NCBI GenBank assembly: GCA_022402525.1
Contig: JAKRSB010000122.1
Coordinates: 62,001-126,000, forward strand
Source of the DNA: Thermosynechococcaceae cyanobacterium MS004
Lineage (GTDB): Bacteria; Cyanobacteriota; Cyanobacteriia; Thermosynechococcales; Thermosynechococcaceae
Direction: 5' to 3'
Length of the DNA stretch: 64,000 bases
Positions 44,818 to 55,600 of this stretch are shown here, piece after piece. The notes beneath the pieces are model-generated. The model was not told the DNA's origin and searched no databases. It saw only the letters and a program-made list of their open reading frames with translations. The position numbers were made by a program, and so were the translations under genes. Every line of letters begins with the position of its first letter. Position 1 is the first letter of the stretch.

Positions 44818-46587
44818 ATGAAATTTAGATGTTCTACAGCGCAGCCCCACAGAAAAAGAATTTTGAGTCTGTGTAGGGTTGGGGTAGCCCTGCTGCTATT
44901 TTTTTCACTTGGGTCTTTTTCCGCTGGATTGGCTCAACAGCGCCAGCCAACCTCGTTTCCGTCAGTTAACCTACAGCCCTTTCAAGCCTTTCTCAATACG
45001 GCCAAGGAGTCTAGTGTGGCTTCGGGTTGGGTGCGGCTGGATGGGTATGCCCTCTTTGCGATCGCAGCCCCAACCGTCACAACCGACAGTCCTTCCGATG
45101 GGGCGACGCCCATTGAGCTGAGGCGTCAGGCGATCGAGCAGCAGCTTGACAGCATCATCAACAGCGGACTAGACCCCAATGCACTTTCAGTGGTGTCCAC
45201 CCTGGATGAAAACAGCAGACTGCCCGTCATTTCAGTCAATGGCCAGTATCTAATGACGGTAACAGACTTAGATGCCCAGCTTCAGACGAGTGACGTGACT
45301 CGATGGGCCAACCAACTCACGGTGCTAGTTCGCAGGGCGCTCCTGAGAGCGTACCAAGAGCGTCAGCCGCGTTTTTTAATGCGTCAGGGCGCTATTTCTG
45401 GCGGATCAATATTGGCAATTCTCGTCTTGAGCCGTTTTTTGGTGAGTCAGCAGCGGCGTCTCAAAGCGAGTCGAAAAAGCATAGACGCTGAAAGCGAGGC
45501 TGCTAATGCTGTGATTCAGCGTCATCTCGTACCCAGTGGCCCAGCGCTGTCCAGCGCAACGGACTCCGCCGAGTTACCAGCGACGAATCTAGCCCCATCT
45601 CAGATCGTGCGGCAGCAGCGCAGGAATCTCATTGATCTTAGGCTGCGCGTTATTCAGATTAGCCAGGTGGGACTTTGGGGCGGTGGAGCCGTTGTCATCT
45701 TGGGGCTGTTTCCGCAAACCCGATGGCTGCGCGCATTCCTGCTCTCAACCCCGCTCCAGCTTTTAGGGGTGAGCCTAGGCACTTATCTCCTGATTCGGCT
45801 GAGTGATGTGCTGATCGATCAATTGTTTAAGTCGCTTCAGACCAATGAATTTATTACACCAGAAGACTCCCAGCGTCTGCTGCTGAGAATTTCTACGGTG
45901 GCGCGCGTGGCCAAGAGTACAGCGTCGCTGTTATGGATTGGGGTGGGACTGATGAGCTGCCTATCGCTGCTGGGGGTAGATTTACTCCCACTGCTGGCTG
46001 GGGCTGGCATTATTGGCCTAGCGCTCTCCTTTGCCGCCCAGAGCGTGATTAAAGATGTGATTAACGGATTTCTTATTCTTTTTGAAGATCAGTATGCGGT
46101 AGGGGATGTGATTACGGTCGGGAATGTGGGCGGGCTGGTGGAGAATATCAACCTGCGCATTACGCAGCTCCGCAATAGCGAAGGGATGCTCATCACAATC
46201 CCCAATAGTCAGGTTTCAGTGGTTCAAAACCTGTCTCAAGGGTGGTCACGGGTTGACCTGACGATTCAGGTGGGCCATAGTGCTGACCCCGACGCGGTGC
46301 TTCAGTCACTTAAGCATTTGGCAGAGGAGATGTACTGCGATATCCAGTGGCGCTCAAAACTCTTGGAGCCTCCAGAGATTTTAGGTATTGAAACATTAGA
46401 TCATGTGGGAATGGCTATTCGGATTTGGATCAAAACCCAGCCGCTCCAGCAGTGGGTGGTGGCTCGTGAGTTCCGGCGACGCCTCAAAAAGCTGATGGTG
46501 GAAGAGAATCTATCCATTGGAATGCCCCAGCAGTCGCTATGGTTGAATGGTGACGCAGCCCCAGGGTCGAGGGTTACTGATCCTTGA
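44818..46587 (+). CDS. MscS-family mechanosensitive channel (first paralogue)
   Basis: 589 aa. A signal peptide (VALLLFFSLGSFSAGLAQQ) and a periplasmic domain (GWVRLDGYALFAIAAP; LPVISVNGQYLMTVTD) precede several helices and the MscS pore/beta domain (GLALSFAAQSVIKDVINGFLILFEDQYAVGDVITVG). It opens under membrane tension or conducts ions in osmotic adaptation. It begins 23 bp after the NYN gene and is followed 48 bp later by a paralogue with the same layout. Confidence 0.9.
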   Translation: MKFRCSTAQPHRKRILSLCRVGVALLLFFSLGSFSAGLAQQRQPTSFPSVNLQPFQAFLNTAKESSVASGWVRLDGYALFAIAAPTVTTDSPSDGATPIELRRQAIEQQLDSIINSGLDPNALSVVSTLDENSRLPVISVNGQYLMTVTDLDAQLQTSDVTRWANQLTVLVRRALLRAYQERQPRFLMRQGAISGGSILAILVLSRFLVSQQRRLKASRKSIDAESEAANAVIQRHLVPSGPALSSATDSAELPATNLAPSQIVRQQRRNLIDLRLRVIQISQVGLWGGGAVVILGLFPQTRWLRAFLLSTPLQLLGVSLGTYLLIRLSDVLIDQLFKSLQTNEFITPEDSQRLLLRISTVARVAKSTASLLWIGVGLMSCLSLLGVDLLPLLAGAGIIGLALSFAAQSVIKDVINGFLILFEDQYAVGDVITVGNVGGLVENINLRITQLRNSEGMLITIPNSQVSVVQNLSQGWSRVDLTIQVGHSADPDAVLQSLKHLAEEMYCDIQWRSKLLEPPEILGIETLDHVGMAIRIWIKTQPLQQWVVAREFRRRLKKLMVEENLSIGMPQQSLWLNGDAAPGSRVTDP

Positions 46588-46635
46588 GCTTTTGTATCCT
46601 GAGCTTTCGTACCTTGACCTTTCGCAGATGTTGCC

Positions 46636-48246
46636 ATGCGCTTTACTCGACTTTTCCGTCTCTTGAGTATCGCCTTGGCGTTTGCTTTAATTCTGGGGGT
46701 TTGGCTAAAGCCATCGATCGCTCAGGCTGAGGTGAAAGCGTCCGTGGTGCTGGATGGGCGATCGCTCTTTGCCCTGAGCGCGTCCGGTCAGTATAGCGCC
46801 CAGGAGCGTGCATCTTTTATCAACGCCCAGCTTCAGGAAACCGTGGCTAAGCCAGATGCGGTGCAGGTCACTCTAGAGCAGCGCAATCAGCTCCCTACGG
46901 TTTTAGTCAATGACCGCTATCTGCTGACCGTCACCAGCACCGATACGATGCTGGGCAGTACGCCAGAGGCTCAGGCGGGGCAGTGGGCACAGACGATTCG
47001 ACAGGCCATCCAGCAGGCTCAGCAAGAGCGTCGAGGAGAGTCTCTCCGGCAGATGGGAATTATGGCGGTTGGCCTGCTGCTGCTGGCGATCGCACTGCAC
47101 TGGTTGTTAGGAAAAATTGCCGGACGCCTCTCGCGGATAGCCCTGCGCAAGATTCTGCCGATGGAAGATGCGGGGGCAGCGCCCACGGGGATGCCTGTGG
47201 TGGCCCAATCCTCCACGATGGTTGCCTTTAGCTTCAAGCTGGCCCTTGCGCTGCTGCGGCTAGGGCTATGGGTCAGCATGGTGCTGTATGGTGCCAACCT
47301 ATTTCCCTGGACGCGCCAGTGGAGCTACCAGGCCATTGAACTGGTGCGCTCCAGTTTTTTGTCGCCCATCCTCACCCTCGGCACAAATCCCTATTCCTTA
47401 ACGGATTTGTGCATTTTGGTCAGCGTCTTGCTGGGCTGGGTTGTGCTGGCCGGCCTTTTGAGCAATGTGCTCAAGACCCGCGTGCTGTCCCTTGCCGGAC
47501 TGGGGCGCGGTGCCCAGGAGGCGATCGCTGTGGTGACGCGCTACCTGCTGATCTTTTTAGGGACGCTGGTTCTGCTCCAGGTCTGGGGGTTAGACCTTAG
47601 TTCTTTAACCATTTTGGCCAGTGCCTTGGGGATTGGGATTGGGCTAGGGCTGCAAAATATTGCCAAAAACTTCAGCAGCGGCCTCGTGCTGGTCTTTGAG
47701 CGTCCCATTCAGGTCGGAGACTTTATCGAAGTGGGTGCTTTTAAGGGCACCATTGAGCGCATTGGCCCGCGCAGTACCTATATTCGCACGCCAGACTTTG
47801 TGTCGATTATTGTGCCCAATTCACGGTTTCTCGAAGAAGAAGTGATCAATTGGAGCCATGATACCCCCATGTCTCGACTACATTTACCCGTAGGCGTTGC
47901 CTATGGCTCTGACCCCAAGGAAGTAGAAGCTGCCCTGATGGAAGTGGCGAATCTCAACGTTAAAGTGCTCCAAAATCCGCCACCTAGGGTGGTCTTTACG
48001 GGATTGGGGGATAGTTCTTTAGACTTTGAGCTACTGGTCTGGACGGAAGACCCCAGCAAACAGTTTTTACTCAAGAGCGATTTATATTTTCAGATCTATG
48101 AGATTCTTTGCCGGAAAGAAATTGAAATTCCTTTCCCTCAGCGGGATCTTCATATTCGCTCTAGTAGTTTATCCAAGAAGCAGTCGACGATCGCAGCTCA
48201 AATTTTGCTAGCTGAGGGTGAATTAGCACAAGAGGATTCAGATTAA
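46636..48246 (+). CDS. MscS-family mechanosensitive channel (second paralogue)
   Basis: 536 aa with a signal peptide (ALAFALILGVWLKPSIAQA), then a periplasmic domain matching the first paralogue (VVLDGRSLFALSASG; LPTVLVNDRYLLTVTS). The pore domain follows (GLGLQNIAKNFSSGLVLVFERPIQVGDFIEVG; IVPNSRFLEEEVINWS). The shared N-terminal domain points to tandem duplication followed by strong divergence. Confidence 0.9.
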   Translation: MRFTRLFRLLSIALAFALILGVWLKPSIAQAEVKASVVLDGRSLFALSASGQYSAQERASFINAQLQETVAKPDAVQVTLEQRNQLPTVLVNDRYLLTVTSTDTMLGSTPEAQAGQWAQTIRQAIQQAQQERRGESLRQMGIMAVGLLLLAIALHWLLGKIAGRLSRIALRKILPMEDAGAAPTGMPVVAQSSTMVAFSFKLALALLRLGLWVSMVLYGANLFPWTRQWSYQAIELVRSSFLSPILTLGTNPYSLTDLCILVSVLLGWVVLAGLLSNVLKTRVLSLAGLGRGAQEAIAVVTRYLLIFLGTLVLLQVWGLDLSSLTILASALGIGIGLGLQNIAKNFSSGLVLVFERPIQVGDFIEVGAFKGTIERIGPRSTYIRTPDFVSIIVPNSRFLEEEVINWSHDTPMSRLHLPVGVAYGSDPKEVEAALMEVANLNVKVLQNPPPRVVFTGLGDSSLDFELLVWTEDPSKQFLLKSDLYFQIYEILCRKEIEIPFPQRDLHIRSSSLSKKQSTIAAQILLAEGELAQEDSD

Positions 48247-48358: not shown

Positions 48359-48553
48359 TTAGCGCAGGGTATGGCAGCTCACGTTTTTGTCGATTTTGCC
48401 ACTGCGTACTGCTTTGCTTGAGCGATCGCTGTAGAGCACCGTCATCCAGGTGATGTCGACGGATGATTTCACTTCTGGGCTCGATGGAGTGCTGCTTGGT
48501 GGGGAAGACGCACTGCCATTTCCATTCACGGTTGGCGTTTGGATATTTTCGCT
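48359..48553 (-). pseudogene. Possible gene remnant, 64 codons without a start
   Basis: A minus-strand frame ends with TAA at 48359 and reads ...VDITWMTVLYSDRSSKAVRSG to a Cys-containing end (NVSCHTLR). It is preceded by a Ser/Pro-rich stretch and closed upstream by TAG at 48554-48556, without ATG, GTG or TTG. The coding look of the C-terminal part suggests the tail of a decayed gene. Low confidence. Confidence 0.25.
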
Positions 48554-48961
48554 CTAGGTGGCTCCATACCGTGCTGAATAAGATCCTATTCTTGTCAGTT
48601 AGGATAGCATTTTGCGTTCTAAGTCACCTTAATTTTGACGAAGAAAAAGTCTCAGGATGCTGACATGAAGAAGCGTTGAGAATTTATAAGCAAGGTTTCT
48701 ATATTTGTTTTTTAGATATAGCTTCTTAAAGAGAAGGATGATAGTATAGCTGCAAGCTTTATACACCTAAGATATTAGAGGCTGACAGGTAAAGTTATGT
48801 AGATCCCATTTTGGGTTCTACATATAGTTAGCTTTCAAATTATTAATAGAGCTGCCGTTGAATTTGCAACCATGAAACATTTTTGTGGACTATTTCAGAG
48901 TTTTGATACCGCAGACATAACGAGAAAAGTCAATTATAATTGATAGATAGGAAAACCATTT
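48554..48961. other. AT-rich gap before the two-gene module
   Basis: About 400 bp, lower in GC than the left flank, with no gene seen. It marks the start of the accessory segment and presumably carries the promoter of the 129-aa gene. Confidence 0.55.
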
Positions 48962-49351
48962 ATGAGTCAGAATAACGAAGGAATTATTGTCTCAGGTGGC
49001 ACCTTTAGTGCGGGGCAAGTTACTGTTGGTAAAGGTGCTCAAGCGATTCAAACGACTTACAACCTTGCTAGTGAGTTTCAAGCTGAAGGCAAAGAAGAAT
49101 TAGCTAAGGCAATTACAGAACTACTTACTTCCCTTGAAACTCATCGACCTCAAGTATCTGATTATGACGAAGTATCTCAAACTGTTCAACAGATTGCTGA
49201 GGAAGTGAAAAAAGAGAAGCCAAGTAAATTGACTTTAAAGGGACTACTGAATGCTGTCAAAGAATCAGTAGGCTCAGTAGTTGAAATTGTCGAAAAAGTA
49301 GGACTTTTACAAAAGGCAATTGCAGTAGTTACAGGACTTTCTCTGCTGTAG
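48962..49351 (+). CDS. Small protein with N-terminal GG motif and hydrophobic C-terminal helices
   Basis: 129 aa, not assigned to a family. Residues 4-29 form a Gly-rich beta-like motif (GIIVSGGTFSAGQVTVGKGA). Residues ~32-80 are charged and helical (EFQAEGKEELAKAITELL). The last ~40 (LLNAVKESVGSVVEIVEKVG, then LLQKAIAVVTGLSLL) are amphipathic to hydrophobic and could associate with membranes. An AGGAAAA ribosome site precedes the ATG. The motif is repeated, in the same form, near the C-terminus of the downstream 494-aa protein, which suggests partnership. Confidence 0.75.
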   Translation: MSQNNEGIIVSGGTFSAGQVTVGKGAQAIQTTYNLASEFQAEGKEELAKAITELLTSLETHRPQVSDYDEVSQTVQQIAEEVKKEKPSKLTLKGLLNAVKESVGSVVEIVEKVGLLQKAIAVVTGLSLL

Positions 49352-49449
49352 CAGAGTATGTTCTGACACACCTATAAATTTAATCTCTAAGAGATTATTT
49401 TCCAAGTGATGAATCTGGTTGCACCTACTTCCCTGACTAGAGGAAACTC

Positions 49450-50934
49450 ATGAAGAAATCTAATACCACGCGCTACTTGTGTGCTGCCGCTCAAATTGAT
49501 CGAACCTTTCGGAGTCAGGTTCTAGAGAAGATTCTAGATGAAGAGTATCGTGTTATCAGCATTCCAGCAGGTGTTGATTTATTAGCTGTTGCCAAACACT
49601 GTCTTGATGCTAAACGTCGAAAGTTAATTCGGAACATTGTTCTATCTATCCTTTTTATTATAGCTTTGGTAAGTGCCTATGGACAAGTAAGCTATGGACT
49701 TGAATACGGCTATACCGATCCTATCTCCGCCTTCTTACGCAGCATCTTTTCATCTTTCTTTTCCTTCTATTTCTTATTATCTTGGGCAGTAGTTGTATTT
49801 GAGACTTGGATTACTCGGTATCAAATTATTGCTAAATCTTTGCTAAAGCAGAACTTCAACCCAGACGGCGTAACTTTAACAGATGAAGCTGAAGCTGAGA
49901 TACGCCGTAAGCTTTCTGGAGTTATAAACGAAGAAGATTGCAACATAGTTATCTATAGCGGCTTTACACCTTTTGTCGGTTCAGGTACGGATATTGGTGG
50001 ATGGTCTTTTACTTTGAATATAAACAAAGGGAAAGAGGAAATGAAAGTCGCCAAGAAACCTGAACCTTTTACTGTTGAAGAGTTATATTCTTATATTGAT
50101 TCAGATATCAGAAAGCTGCATCTACAAGGAACAAGTATTCAAGACAAAATTTTTGTAAATGGTCAAGAAATTCGAGGTGACGAGAGATTTCTACCTGATC
50201 TGTTTCATCGTCCTTTAACGCAGGTCGATCAATCGACTTTGAAGGAGTTTATTGGAGGTCAATCAGATGGAATTAGGCACTATAAATGCATCCGTATAAT
50301 TGGTTGGCAGGGAGAAATCATCTTGTCAGTATTTTTGCGCTTCCTTAAACTCCGTCAGAATCTATTTGTTGAAGCCAGTTACTTCTTCTTGCCACCGCTT
50401 AAGCAGGAATATCGCAAGATTGATGAAATTCAGCATAATCCTACTTGGCGACAACTGGTTCAGATGCTTCAAGAGACATTTATGAAAGCGTTATTTCTCT
50501 TTCCATTTTCCATTTTTCTGCTTAGTGGAGAACTATTTCGACCTCTTGCTCGGTGGAATCAACGAATATCTAACAGACGATTAATTCGTGAAAATCCAAT
50601 GTTTGATTATGGTGCTTCAACTAGTATTCGGGAATTAGCAGCTTCCAATTTGTACAGCCACTATTTTCAGAAATTAGATAAAGAAATGTATCTGAAACTT
50701 ATTGAACGCCAAATCTTAGATAGTATTGTCAATTTCCTTGATGCTCACAATATTGATACTTCTGATTTGAGAGCAAGACAAGACACAATTTTGAATAATG
50801 GTGTTATTGTTACAGGTGGTTCCGTTGAAGTACAGAATCTTACTGTAGGGGAACGTGCTAAATCAGTAATGAACAATGTGACTCAAGCTGTTTCTTCGGT
50901 CACAAGTACTCAGGCAAGTAGCAGTAAAAACTAG
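49450..50934 (+). CDS. Membrane protein of unknown function with C-terminal GG motif
   Basis: 494 aa from ATG with an AGAGGAA ribosome site. The N-terminal segment (TRYLCAAAQIDRTFRSQVLEK; GVDLLAVAKHCLDAKRRKL) and the block YSGFTPFVGSGTDIGGWSF recall a family I remember from actinobacteria, also without known function. Hydrophobic segments lie near residues 60-78, 95-122 and 343-362. Residues 449-473 (NNGVIVTGGSVEVQNLTVGE) repeat the motif of the 129-aa protein. AT-rich codon use differs from the chromosomal flanks, suggesting transfer. The stop lies 31 bp before attC-like site 1, the layout of an integron cassette. Confidence 0.78.
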   Translation: MKKSNTTRYLCAAAQIDRTFRSQVLEKILDEEYRVISIPAGVDLLAVAKHCLDAKRRKLIRNIVLSILFIIALVSAYGQVSYGLEYGYTDPISAFLRSIFSSFFSFYFLLSWAVVVFETWITRYQIIAKSLLKQNFNPDGVTLTDEAEAEIRRKLSGVINEEDCNIVIYSGFTPFVGSGTDIGGWSFTLNINKGKEEMKVAKKPEPFTVEELYSYIDSDIRKLHLQGTSIQDKIFVNGQEIRGDERFLPDLFHRPLTQVDQSTLKEFIGGQSDGIRHYKCIRIIGWQGEIILSVFLRFLKLRQNLFVEASYFFLPPLKQEYRKIDEIQHNPTWRQLVQMLQETFMKALFLFPFSIFLLSGELFRPLARWNQRISNRRLIRENPMFDYGASTSIRELAASNLYSHYFQKLDKEMYLKLIERQILDSIVNFLDAHNIDTSDLRARQDTILNNGVIVTGGSVEVQNLTVGERAKSVMNNVTQAVSSVTSTQASSSKN

Positions 50935-50965
50935 GTTTTTAGATAAAACACCTCAAGGTCAACTG

Positions 50966-51057
50966 GGCTAACAAGCGCTTGCACTCGGAACGGCAGCATA
51001 CGCTATTAGCTGTGTCGTAAAGTCCAGTGCCGTCCGGTGAAGCGCCAGCCGTTAGAT
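50966..51057 (+). repeat. attC-like site 1
   Basis: GGCTAAC (50966-50972) and GTTAGAT (51051-51057) bound a long imperfect hairpin. The inner arms pair over 18 bp: GCGCTT/AAGCGC, CAC/GTG, CGGA/TCCG and CGGCA/TGCCG. Three unpaired bases, all on the left arm (50981, 50985, 50990), interrupt the stem. Extrahelical bases on one arm and a 3' GTTRRRY core are defining marks of integron attC sites. The 5' core deviates at one base from RYYYAAC. It follows the 494-aa gene in cassette orientation. Confidence 0.75.
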
Positions 51058-51178
51058 CGCTATTATTTCATTTCTATCGCTTCATTGCGGAAAAGCGGCG
51101 GCATTCCAGGAAAGGCCACCGCTTCTTTATGCTTTGGAAAGGAGTAACTCCTCAATCCATTCAGCCTGAGTGGTTCAC

Positions 51179-51475
51179 CTAGCCGGACACTGGCGAAACC
51201 GCGATCGCCCCAGCAATACCTGAGGATGGAGCAGGAGCACCACGCAACATCCCTTCCGTACTCAAATCTTCGTCGATGTCATCCCAGTGAATCCCATAAC
51301 CACCACCGCAAACTTCCCAATTTGAACGTTGATCGGGTGTGGCATTAAGCAGCTTTGGGTACCAAGCTAGAGGGACAGTGATTATCCGTCCATCCATTAA
51401 ATCAACGCTAACGGTTTCTTCAGTACAGTAGACATTCTTCACTCTTTCATCAGCCCGAATTGCCAAAATACCCAT
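51179..51475 (-). CDS. DUF2442 protein, copy 1 (antitoxin-like), chimeric C-terminus
   Basis: 98 aa. The DUF2442 core is clear: VSVDLMDGRIITVPLAWYPKL, NWEVCGGGYGIHWDDIDEDLS and EGMLRG. The last 15 residues (SSGIAGAIAVSPVSG) are not expected for the family and match the end of the adjacent 1030-aa membrane protein, including the stop codon and downstream DNA. The start overlaps the 3' end of DUF4160 by 26 bp, so translation is probably coupled. The pair is often adjacent in bacteria and is treated as toxin-antitoxin-like; activity is not established here. Confidence 0.85.
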   Translation of the reverse strand: MGILAIRADERVKNVYCTEETVSVDLMDGRIITVPLAWYPKLLNATPDQRSNWEVCGGGYGIHWDDIDEDLSTEGMLRGAPAPSSGIAGAIAVSPVSG

Positions 51476-51701
51476 ACCAAGCCTCCAATAGATTTTTCTG
51501 ATTTTCTTGGGCTATCGATTGCAATGTCCGAAGTTCTTTAGCACTAAAACCAATGTTGCTAGCGAGGCTCACTGGTTCCAGCCAAAATTTAGCCGATGAA
51601 TCATCGCGGTCAATATGTATATGCGGTGGCTCATTCGGCTCATGGCTGTAAAAATAAAAGCGGTAGGGGCCGATCCGTAAAATTGTTGTAACTCTAATCA
51701 T
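51450..51701 (-). CDS. DUF4160 protein, copy 1 (toxin-like)
   Basis: 83 aa from ATG at 51701: TTILRIGPYRFYFYSHEPNEPPHIHIDRDD, then KFWLEPVSLASNIGFSAKELRTL (both read in parts), the DUF4160 pattern. A longer frame from 51740 would start inside the attC-like site and is less likely. The start codon lies 15 bp from the attC-like site 2, so its promoter must lie in or across that site. Confidence 0.86.
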   Translation of the reverse strand: MIRVTTILRIGPYRFYFYSHEPNEPPHIHIDRDDSSAKFWLEPVSLASNIGFSAKELRTLQSIAQENQKNLLEAWYGYFGNSG

Positions 51702-51715
51702 ACGTTGGTTGCCAT

Positions 51716-51802
51716 GTCTAACCCAGGCGTGCAACGGCACGGAGCGATACGCTAGGCTGCTTCAAAGTTCAATTCTGTCCGCTGAAGCCTGAGCCGTTAG
51801 AT
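51716..51802 (+). repeat. attC-like site 2
   Basis: Core sites GTCTAAC (51716-51722, exact RYYYAAC) and GTTAGAT (51796-51802, exact GTTRRRY) bound 87 bp. The inner arms are partly complementary (AGGC/GCCT, CGG/CCG) with bulges. The stem is less perfect than site 1. The sequence is identical to site 3. Confidence 0.7.
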
Positions 51803-51928
51803 CGCTATTACTTCATTTCTATCGCTTCATTGCGGAAAAGCGGCGGCATTCCATTTCAGGAAAGGCCACCGCTTCTTTATGCTTTGGAAGGGAGTAACCC
51901 CTCAATCCGTTCAGCCTGAGTGGCTCGC

Positions 51929-52225
51929 CTAGCCGGACACTGGCGAAACCGCGATCGCCCCAGCAATACCTGAGGATGGAGCAGGAGCACCACGCAACAT
52001 CCCTTCCGTACTCAAATCTTCGTCGATGTCATCCCAGTGAATCCCATAACCACCACCGCAAACTTCCCAATTTGAACGTTGATCGGGTGTGGCATTAAGC
52101 AGCTTTGGGTACCAAGCTAGAGGGACAGTGATTATCCGTCCATCCATTAAATCAACGCTAACGGTTTCTTCAGTACAGTAGACATTCTTCACTCTTTCAT
52201 CAGCCCGAATTGCCAAAATACCCAT
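51929..52225 (-). CDS. DUF2442 protein, copy 2, chimeric C-terminus
   Basis: Identical in protein sequence to the copy ending at 51179, including the SSGIAGAIAVSPVSG tail. It overlaps its DUF4160 partner by 26 bp. The stop and the following ~120 bp again match the DNA at the 3' end of the 1030-aa gene. Confidence 0.85.
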   Translation of the reverse strand: MGILAIRADERVKNVYCTEETVSVDLMDGRIITVPLAWYPKLLNATPDQRSNWEVCGGGYGIHWDDIDEDLSTEGMLRGAPAPSSGIAGAIAVSPVSG

Positions 52226-52451
52226 ACCAAGCCTCCAATAGATTTTTCTGATTTTCTTGGGCTATCGATTGCAATGTCCGAAGTTCTTTAGCACTAAAAC
52301 CAATGTTGCTAGCGAGGCTCACTGGTTCCAGCCAAAATTTAGCCGATGAATCATCGCGGTCAATATGTATATGCGGTGGCTCATTCGGCTCATGGCTGTA
52401 AAAATAAAAGCGGTAGGGGCCGATCCGTAAAATTGTTGTAACTCTAATCAT
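52200..52451 (-). CDS. DUF4160 protein, copy 2
   Basis: Identical in protein sequence to copy 1, from ATG at 52451. It lies between attC-like site 3 and DUF2442 copy 2. Confidence 0.86.
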   Translation of the reverse strand: MIRVTTILRIGPYRFYFYSHEPNEPPHIHIDRDDSSAKFWLEPVSLASNIGFSAKELRTLQSIAQENQKNLLEAWYGYFGNSG

Positions 52452-52465
52452 ACGTTGGTTGCCAT

Positions 52466-52552
52466 GTCTAACCCAGGCGTGCAACGGCACGGAGCGATAC
52501 GCTAGGCTGCTTCAAAGTTCAATTCTGTCCGCTGAAGCCTGAGCCGTTAGAT
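52466..52552 (+). repeat. attC-like site 3
   Basis: GTCTAAC (52466-52472) to GTTAGAT (52546-52552), identical to site 2 throughout. The DNA to its right is the third copy of the shared spacer, leading into the 3' end of the 1030-aa gene. Confidence 0.7.
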
Positions 52553-52678
52553 CACTATTGCTTCATTTCTATCACTTCATTGCGGAAAAGCGGCGGCATT
52601 CCATTCCAGGAAAGGCCACCGCTTCTTTATGCTTTGGAAGGGAATAACCCCTCAATCCGTTCAGCCTGAATGGCTCGC

Positions 52679-55600
52679 CTAGCCGGACACTGGCGAAACC
52701 GCGATCGCCCCAGCAAGTCCCGCCGCAATACCAGAGCTGAGTGCAGTGGCAAAGAGCCACCAAGCCGCCGTGGCCGCCGCCTTACGGGTTACTTCAGCCT
52801 GTTCTTGCGCCTGCCGCTTGATGTCGTCTAGACGCGACTGGATTTGATGCTGAATGCGCTCAGCCCGTTGCAGGACATTGGTGCGCACCTGATCCACCTG
52901 GTCGATGACCCGGTTGGCGTCCGCTTCAGAAATATCGTCCCGTGAACTGATGACCGCCACTAAGGTATCTCGGTCAAACTGCGACAGGCGATCGCGCAGG
53001 GCCTCAAAGCCCGCATTGGGGTCATCAAAGAGGGTGCGCACATCCTGCTTAATGCCGTCATAGTTGAGTTCAGGGCGCTCTAGACCGTTGAGATAGTCGC
53101 GAATTTTCCCTAAAATCCCCTCAATGACAGACTCAATCTTGGCCTTAATAGCCTCGATTTGAGCCATCAGCCGATCACGCACCGCCAGCACCCGATCCAC
53201 AATTTCTTCGGCTTCCGCTTCCGAAATGTCTTCCCGCTGGGACAGGAGCGCCACAACGGTAGAGCGGTCAACTTGGGACAGGCGATCGCCAAGCTGATTT
53301 ACCCCCAAGCGCGGGTCTTGGAACAGTAGACCCAAGTCGCGCTTAATGCCGTCGGGGTTTAGCTCGGCTTTATCGGTATTGCGCAGATAGTCTTCTAGGG
53401 CAGTTTGGAAATTCTGCACCTTTTCTTGGGCGCGAAGGGCCAGTCGCCGAGGGGTACGCAGCACTTGACGAATGGTATCCTGCACTTGGTCGATGGTGGC
53501 GTTGACCTCTTCTTCCGTCAGGTCATCCCGCTGACTGAGCAACTGCACCAGGGTATCGCGATCCACTTGGGCGAGGCGATCGCGGATGAGGCTTAGCCCC
53601 GTCTTGGGATCTTCCAGGAGCGTGCTGAGGTCGCGTTTAATGCCTTCAGGATTTAGCTCGGATTTACCCGTGTCCCGCAGGTAGGCTGCGATCGCGGCGG
53701 TGGTGTCTTCGTACTTCACCTTGGCTTGATGGGCCAGGTCTTCTGGGGCATGGATCACCTGCTTCCAGCTCGATTCCACCTGATCCAGGACGCTCTTCAC
53801 CTGATCTTCGCTGAGATTTTCCTGCTGGCTCAAAAGCTGCACCAGGGTATCGCGGTCAAAGCGACTGGCTCGCAGCTTGAGGTCATAAAAGCCCACCTGC
53901 GGGTCGTCTAGGAGCGTTTTTAAGTCGTGCTTGATACCCTCTGGATCTAGCTCAGATTTGCCCGTACTGCGCAAGTAGTCCTGCACCTTTTGCCATTGAA
54001 GATCAACCCTAGCCTGAGCGCCTTCCTTCAGCCCCTTGCTATCGGCGATCGCGACGGTCAAAACCTGCGTAAAGGCGTCAGAGAGATGCGTCTTTTCGAC
54101 GCTATTGAGATCCGTCCGCTGCTGAAGATCGCTCAAGACATTCTTCTGCTGAAGCTGCACGAGGCGATCGTGGAGCTCCTGGGGGTCGGCCTCAGGGTCA
54201 GTTAGCAATGCCTTAAAAGATTGGCTCGCTTCTACTGAGAGAAACTCCTCTTTTGGCGTTGTATGAAGATAGTGGCTCACGGCCTGCCGCGTATCTTCCA
54301 GCGCTTCTGCCGCCTCTGCCTCCCGCACCTCTGCCAAGACCTGCTGCCGCACCTGCTCTAGTTTGTCGGTGAGATCGGCAATCTTAGCCTGAGTAAACAC
54401 GCCACGGGACTGAAGAATGAAAGTAAAGTCAGAGTCCTTCAGGGACTCAATGCCTTGGCGAATCGTCCGCGCATCCGCATTGGGGTCATAAAGCAGCGCT
54501 CTAAAGTCCGTCTCAACCTGAGATAGCTGCCAAGCATAGGTGTGGCGCAGGTAGTCTTCCACGTCCGAGCGAATTACCGCCGCCCCTGGAGAGAGGGTCG
54601 AGCTGGCCACCTGTTCTGAAACAGCGCTCACCCGATCTTGCACCTGGGCTTGAGCACTCTTAAGCTGACCCTTAATTTTGCCAACATCCAGATCGGATAA
54701 ATCCACCCGACCCACGATCGCCCCCAGGAGCGCACTAATGCCCTGCTCTAGCTGGCTCGGATTTTGCTGGGCACGGGCGTCTTTCACAAACTGACCGAGC
54801 TGCTTCGCAAATTCTTGCGAGAGGAGTTCTCTCGGCTTTGCCGATTTGGCAAACTTCAGCAGATCGCTGAGTCCACCACCGGATTTGAGACTCTTGAGCG
54901 CACCCTGCCAGGACTGATCTAACTCATTCACAATCTTCTTGACATCCCGTGGAGAGAGGTCAGTACGCTCTTTGAGTAAATTCTCGAAGGTTTCCCGACT
55001 GACCGTCGGCAGATTTTCTCCAGACACTAGGCCCTTGAGGTCAGCGTCAGACTCCTTTAGAATTTTTTCAAACTGCTCCCGAATCCCCTGGAGATTTAGC
55101 TCCGGCGATCGCACCGTGCTGATGAGTTTTCCAAAGGACTCCTGAACGTCCTGGGGGTCAACATAGGCCGTCATTTCCCGACGCACTGCCGCCGCCGCCG
55201 CCTCTGCAGAAGACACCAACTCAGAGCCAGCAGCCTTTACGCCCAGCGCTGCGGTCGCCGTCCCAAATACCGTCTGAAACCCTTTGGTGGCCGTACTCAC
55301 CACAGAGCCCACCAATGAGCCTACAGTCGTAGAGCTAATCCAGACCAAAATTGAAAAATAAGACGCCCAAATGACCAGCCCCACCGTCACGCCCATTATG
55401 GTGGTGGTTACAAAGCTGAGCTTGACCGCCAGCAAGGACGCCACAAATAGCGCAATACTAACCGTCACTAACGTCCACAGCCCCACCGCCTTGCCAATGG
55501 TGCCCATGCTGCTGCCGCCACCGGAGGACTCGTGATCATTGGGGGCAAGACTAAAGACTGAAATTCCAGCAGCTACTGAGAAGTTGGTGAGTAGCATCTG

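Follow-up and report, generated by a model that had tools for sequence, protein, structure and literature searches.

A two-gene unit of cyanobacteria and actinomycetes with matched terminal motifs: a candidate for NLR-free amyloid-type signalling

The locus and its genomic setting

The window, a stretch of 64,000 nucleotides, carries two neighbouring plus-strand genes at 48962-50934, where the first-pass annotation had placed them. The first, P0001, encodes a small soluble protein and the second, P0002, a membrane protein. The features of the locus are as follows.

48402..48578, minus strand: relic of a gene for an integron integrase, upstream of the two-gene unit and in divergent orientation (TIGR02249, E 3.5e-17 over 59 aa)
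48939..50962, plus strand: DNA similarity (84%) to the two-gene unit of Phormidium tenue FACHB-886 (L003), with unrelated flanks
48962..49351, plus strand: P0001, 129 aa, N-terminal motif and helical domain, member of DUF5955 (PF19380) (Pfam, AF2 model)
48974..49048, plus strand: motif of P0001, residues 5-29, NEGIIVSGGTFSAGQVTVGKGAQAI (ungapped alignment, six-frame scan)
49450..50934, plus strand: P0002, membrane protein of 494 aa with a C-terminal motif
50794..50868, plus strand: motif of P0002, residues 449-473, NNGVIVTGGSVEVQNLTVGERAKSV (ungapped alignment, six-frame scan)
50969..51056, plus strand: attC-like site 1, directly 3' of P0002 (pattern match; bottom-strand folding z -2.2)
51719..51801, plus strand: attC-like site 2 (pattern match)
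52469..52551, plus strand: attC-like site 3 (pattern match)

The DNA similarity to P. tenue spans exactly the two genes and nothing beyond, which argues that the pair moves jointly. Its GC content is 0.38, compared to 0.53 in the rest of the window. The attC-like pattern occurs three times where 0.01 occurrences are expected, and all three sites have GTTAGAT as R'; at the upstream boundary of the pair, inspection and folding revealed no attI or attC. Because the integrase remnant lies upstream and the attC-like sites downstream, the pair is most likely what remains as first cassette in an integron that has decayed. The genome to which the window belongs has one intact integron integrase (G000:C140:45363-46304) and about a dozen degenerate copies elsewhere, among them the one at 48402-48578 of the window, so that integrons have decayed in it repeatedly. 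Several other loci of the pair lie on plasmids. The integron remnant, the attC-like site, the low GC content and the movement of the two genes as a unit bear out the accessory, transferred origin proposed in the first-pass annotation.

Positions 50969-52716 of the window hold two near-identical 750-bp cassettes, each of which carries, besides an attC-like site, minus-strand genes for DUF2442 and DUF4160 proteins. A third copy of this repeat overlaps the 3' end of a 1030-aa gene, whose product ends in AGAIAVSPVSG, a sequence that also closes each of the DUF2442 products. Just upstream of the pair, at 44818-48246, two different genes for MscS-type mechanosensitive channels are arranged in tandem. 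We tested the MscS channels, an NYN gene and the DUF2442/DUF4160 pairs as window neighbours, and among the genes examined saw no NLR partner near the pair. The defence context is thin: direct defence neighbours are few across the loci, and OLD/GajA-like ones occur in S. griseorubiginosus only.

Matched motifs in P0001, P0002 and their relatives

The shared motif lies at opposite ends of the two products, N-terminal in P0001 and C-terminal in P0002. The ungapped match, already noticed in the first-pass annotation, is real, but it extends over 25 residues with 10 identities (P0001 residues 5-29, P0002 residues 449-473) instead of the 23 and 9 given there. With a local BLOSUM62 score of 59 it exceeds shuffled partners (mean 24.2, sd 4.7) by about seven standard deviations, and none of these reached 59 in 2000 trials. 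When the 64-kb window was searched in six frames (1,239 fragments), P0001 ranked first with the P0002 motif as query (score 59, next 36), and P0002 ranked first with the P0001 motif (score 58, next 38). A cruder query, the last 40 residues of P0002, placed P0001 just fifth, because this cut loses the start of the motif. Across the whole 4.9-Mb genome, a motif profile that included the two sequences matched their own two sites only. Matches of the motif profile alone outside such pairs, at E 0.001-0.1, were set aside because short glycine-rich matches are unreliable.

P0002, in the first-pass annotation a membrane protein without known function, has no match above cut-off in Pfam or NCBIfam and none in PADLOC, and sequence searches of the PDB gave no relatives of its family. 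Its hydrophobic stretches fall at about residues 56-84, 92-121 and 344-363. Two hydrophobic segments at the N-terminus are followed by a soluble region, in which PFxGxG and certain R and E residues are conserved, and by the C-terminal motif. In an alignment of eleven sequences, the conserved positions (P0002 numbering) are R8, H50, the F and both G of PFxGxG (175-179), R276, R297, E308, R394 and D410. The structure model of P0002 was unusable (pLDDT 35).

Relatives of P0002 come from P. tenue FACHB-886 (86%) and the cyanobacterium G298 (44%). Others are encoded on actinomycete plasmids or megaplasmids, in Streptomyces BHT-5-2, NBC_01340, NA03103 and AD2-2, in S. griseorubiginosus and in Nonomuraea. 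Profile searches added G410, G527, G576, G609 and G350, and the short form in G350 led to G652 and to plasmids of Gloeothece and Phormidium yuhuli. As to how independent these finds are of the motif, the full-length queries were dominated by the membrane-protein body; the G350 match is short and includes motif columns of the profile, and in the three loci found from it the matching part lies outside the tail. Members of the family are rare: the profile search met them in 3 of the 386 cyanobacterial genomes sampled. Viral contigs and phages yielded nothing.

An FHA domain is present at the N-terminus of the membrane protein in Nonomuraea (E 7e-14), G576 (4e-13) and Gloeothece (8e-8), with a weak match in G410, and three of the loci (G410, G576 and Gloeothece) have a gene for a Ser/Thr protein kinase next to the pair. 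In the AD2-2 plasmid (L042:2953-4684) the membrane protein is distributed over three ORFs, with a 4-nt overlap between successive ones, which jointly span the length of unsplit relatives; this may be a gene fission with coupled translation, or it may reflect sequencing errors.

In all 15 independent loci with readable flanks, from cyanobacteria and actinomycetes, the tail motif of the membrane protein recurs at the N-terminus of a protein encoded nearby. No membrane protein with both flanks readable was found to be missing its motif-matched partner; in G527 just 66 bases of contig precede the gene, and an upstream partner would lie beyond the readable DNA. In most loci the partner gene is directly downstream; in the window it lies upstream, in P. 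yuhuli it is divergent, and in Gloeothece it is one gene away. Examples of matched motifs, tail first and partner second, are:

G298: NSGVLVSGGSFQATNVSSGTNTKAI and NQGIQVTGGHFWADNVASGNNTMAI
Nonomuraea: GSNFGNAPGSNFGNAPGSSF and GTNYGNAPGSNFGHAPGSHF
S. griseorubiginosus: GVIINGGVQSGSIAGGHTVAQTNQT and GVSISGGTQHGPIAGGYHVQQTNQT
NA03103: GGVLIETAGAVGVGDHNIVSN and GGIHIGEAGAVAIGDYNQVTN
G576: FAGGYTKQGNVYTGTVN and FAGGYTEKGDVYTGEVN
G652: QNFTGPVGGVTGTGVVKV and QTFHAPVGGVTGTGDVNV
P. yuhuli: FTGSVGSVAAKVHGNVTNIN and FTGSVSGVAGEVHGNQININ

Some motifs are tandem repeats, as in Nonomuraea (NFGNAPGSNFGNAPGSSF). One motif type is common to the window, G298 and BHT-5-2, and most other loci differ strongly. 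The window motif is not private to its pair: the G298 tail scores 63 against P0001, and P0002 itself scores 59.

To compare all combinations, we scored 14 tails against 14 partners. The own partner was best for 14 of 14 tails and the own tail for 12 of 14 partners, with a mean of 70 on the diagonal and 27 off it. The optimal assignment was the true pairing, and none of 500,000 permutations reached the observed sum, while two control segments outside the motif showed no within-pair excess. When the loci were scanned in six frames, 13 of 14 gave the partner as highest-scoring fragment, and so did the window once the motif was correctly delimited. The fifteenth pair was found by a six-frame scan of the whole Gloeothece plasmid, where the partner, with a score of 91, was the sole fragment scoring at least 42 apart from the tail itself. 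Its ORF (NC_011733.1:17651-18121, plasmid pP742405) is missing from the plasmid gene table because it spans the record start.

This within-pair co-variation in 15 loci strongly supports the earlier proposal of an interaction between the two products by means of their common motif, and specific recognition of the partner by way of the motif is, to judge from the sequences, very probable. The genomes G576 and G609, which belong to one genus, present a natural swap of the motif. Their membrane-protein bodies are 74% identical (464/630, up to the motif), whereas their tails agree in 14 of 38 positions and each matches its own neighbouring partner. The membrane gene of G609 is intact, but a stop shortly after the motif interrupts its partner gene.

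It is highly improbable that the likeness is a mere by-product of a recent internal duplication, of a low-complexity glycine-rich linker or of chance. The motifs are indeed rich in G, N, S and T, but partners shuffled at the same composition fall short of the true score (0 of 2000 in eight of nine pairs, 0.55% in the ninth), and the pattern recurs in 15 loci with varied gene orders, including one divergent arrangement. As to duplication, identical motif residues are encoded by the same codon in 5 of 11 cases in the window, 1 of 10 in G410, 5 of 14 in G576 and 7 of 16 in G298. Since identical residues often differ in codon, the cyanobacterial pairs are kept alike by constraint at the protein level and not by recent duplication. 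In some GC-rich actinomycete pairs most codons are shared, which would suit a duplication, but codon bias weakens the test there. Chance or composition as the source of the likeness is ruled out by the shuffles and permutations, and recent duplication in the cyanobacterial pairs by the codon comparison.

Partner-specific matching would be expected just as well if the motifs were plain docking tags, which form a small, stable heteromeric β-structure and tether the soluble to the membrane protein without polymerising, in a constitutive two-subunit complex for transport, envelope functions or signalling. The conserved R, H, E and PFxGxG residues of the membrane protein could suit an enzyme or a channel in such a complex. 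Docking, however, needs complementary and not similar sequences, the tandem repeats of the Nonomuraea motif resemble known stacking motifs, and the fast turnover of the motif, together with the exchange of the partner for a PNP effector described below, would be unusual in a constitutive complex. We therefore regard docking without polymerisation as unlikely, though it deserves to be kept in view, and favour stacking of the motifs. Stacking is suggested because the paired motifs are alike rather than complementary, as parallel in-register stacking requires, because some of them are tandem repeats, and because the same signature marks amyloid pairs of the same phyla (PMC7889193, PMC8086366).

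Soluble partners and the assignment of roles

P0001 matches DUF5955 (PF19380) with 28.6 bits (E 1.9e-6), above the Pfam cut-off of 27.1. The partner in G410 stays below it with 18.5 bits, and several other partners have no match. Residues 16-117 of P0001 also match the C-terminal part of the PADLOC candidate defence family PDC-M14B (E 7.9e-9), whose N-terminal part differs. In the AF2 model of P0001 (mean pLDDT 73), residues 1-20 are unstructured, the motif is left disordered and five helices, modelled with reasonable confidence, extend from 24 to 124; fold searches of the PDB with this model returned nothing below E 1. The C-terminus, hydrophobic according to the first-pass annotation, is moderately so and remains below the transmembrane threshold. 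A single-sequence search with P0001 over the phylum gave weak matches in L006-L009 (E about 0.004-0.01), and a search of plasmids gave none. A search of the freely accessible literature found no paper naming DUF5955. By eye, the other partners have related or different helical domains of about 100 residues, many with Ala/Gly-rich hydrophobic ends.

Regular occurrence of one gene without the other and without the motif had been named as evidence against the pairing. The membrane protein provided no such case; the small protein provided a partial one, a DUF5955-like protein in Streptomyces NBC_00525 (L041) with no matching motif within its 10-kb locus.

In one locus, that of the Streptomyces AD2-2 plasmid, the motif of the partner is followed not by a helical domain but by the nucleoside-phosphorylase domain PNP_UDP_1 (Pfam E 1.9e-15), and the best PADLOC match of this protein is a PN-superfamily 'Effector' (E 7.7e-21). 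Immune effectors of the PNP_UDP family, both fungal and bacterial, hydrolyse ATP (PMC12881547), and the fungal ones are joined to NLRs via short amyloid motifs (PMC9815663). Because the helical domain is exchanged in AD2-2 for a domain known among immune effectors, the soluble partner is the likelier effector; because some loci have FHA domains and adjoining Ser/Thr kinase genes, the membrane protein is the likelier receptor. These sequence features back the sensor/effector logic of the first-pass annotation, which had left the roles open, and favour the membrane protein as receptor or platform and the soluble partner as effector.

The reverse direction, in which the small protein would be a cytosolic sensor or regulator with the membrane protein as killer, or else an inhibitor in a toxin-antitoxin-like pair, seems to us quite improbable. 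In its favour, it is P0002 that is embedded in the membrane, the small gene precedes it in the window, and in G609 the partner is broken beside an intact membrane gene. Yet this last case argues against a toxin held by that very partner, no toxin-antitoxin family was matched, the catalytic PNP domain of AD2-2 is of the defence-effector type and suits an effector, and an FHA domain on the membrane protein suits a signal-receiving role.

In two Streptomyces plasmids the pair is followed by a third gene of 308 codons (L036:5338-6264 and L038:6046-6972), whose product is Pro-rich, has one hydrophobic segment by eye and, in one copy, a weak PsbP-like domain; it is a possible extra component of the system. 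In the P. yuhuli plasmid (L060:2619-6699), related N-terminal motifs (VAGKVDRDQI, VAGQVTGDQV) are borne, besides the matched partner, by a second small protein and by a protein of pentapeptide repeats that weakly matches a TRADD-N-like domain (PF20694, E 6e-4), which suggests that several effectors may share one platform.

Relation to known systems and a proposed mechanism

Bacterial amyloid pairs, with similar termini on the products of neighbouring genes, are known from cyanobacteria and actinomycetes (PMC7889193, PMC8086366). Among them BASS1-10 (Dyrka et al. 2020) link Bell-domain effectors to NLRs (PMC8086366, PMC7889193). One criterion for these, similar motifs of 20-40 residues at the ends of proteins from adjoining genes, also describes P0001 and P0002, and further common traits are the many motif families, the small helical effector, the occasional enzymatic effectors and the distribution over actinomycetes and cyanobacteria. 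In contrast to BASS, no NLR or STAND protein was found in P0002 or the neighbours examined, its place being taken by an unnamed family of membrane proteins, some with FHA. The ends are also reversed: here the effector has the motif at its N-terminus and the membrane protein at its C-terminus, whereas BASS have it at the C-terminus of the effector and the N-terminus of the NLR. The effector domain is DUF5955-like and, though perhaps distantly related to Bell, is not classed with it.

The fungal system of PUASM motifs (PMC9815663) resembles the AD2-2 locus in combining PNP_UDP with a short glycine-rich motif that is matched in the adjoining gene, but its receptor is a fungal NLR and its motif is C-terminal on the PNP protein. 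With the effector-associated domains (EADs) of bacterial conflict systems (PMC7159879, PMC8195603) the pairs share a core to which variable effectors are coupled homotypically, the highest similarity between copies in adjacent genes, the occurrence in multicellular bacteria and, in one neighbouring protein, a TRADD-N-like domain. EADs are, however, conserved globular domains, whereas the motif here has about 25 residues of nearly free sequence, and neither P0001 nor P0002 matched an EAD in Pfam at E up to 10. Among the freely accessible papers listed by a literature search there was none on NLR-independent bacterial amyloid pairs.

We propose that P0002 is a membrane-anchored receptor or platform and P0001 its soluble effector partner, to which the C-terminal 25-residue β-motif of P0002 would signal by homotypic, amyloid-type β-templating. 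When P0002 is clustered or modified, its tails would build a short β-stack, which the N-terminal motif of P0001 could join. The helical DUF5955 domain would thereby be concentrated and activated as effector, most likely by disturbing the membrane with its hydrophobic C-terminal helices, and the cell would probably stop growing or die, as part of a response to conflict or stress. Cross-β polymerisation, the direction of signalling, membrane damage and a role in defence are the parts of this account that we infer. Taken as a whole, an NLR-free variant of bacterial amyloid signalling, in which a receptor or platform is coupled to its effector by amyloid-type templating, is in our judgement the rather probable explanation of the pair. 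More tentatively, with the case falling somewhat short of balanced, the loci may represent an NLR-independent amyloid-type class in cyanobacteria and actinomycetes: a membrane platform, partly phospho-regulated through FHA domains and Ser/Thr kinases, would be combined with exchangeable effectors (DUF5955-like domains, PNP nucleosidases) by pair-specific β-motifs and spread by integrons and plasmids.

A review from 2021 asks whether bacterial signalling amyloids exist in NLR-independent pathways (PMC7889193), and the family described here is a concrete, testable candidate. Its natural motif pairs, of which there are about a dozen, two of them from related genomes with a motif swap in both partners, may serve as a system for measuring how specificity among signalling amyloids is encoded. 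Functional hypotheses are gained for DUF5955 and for the unnamed membrane-protein family.
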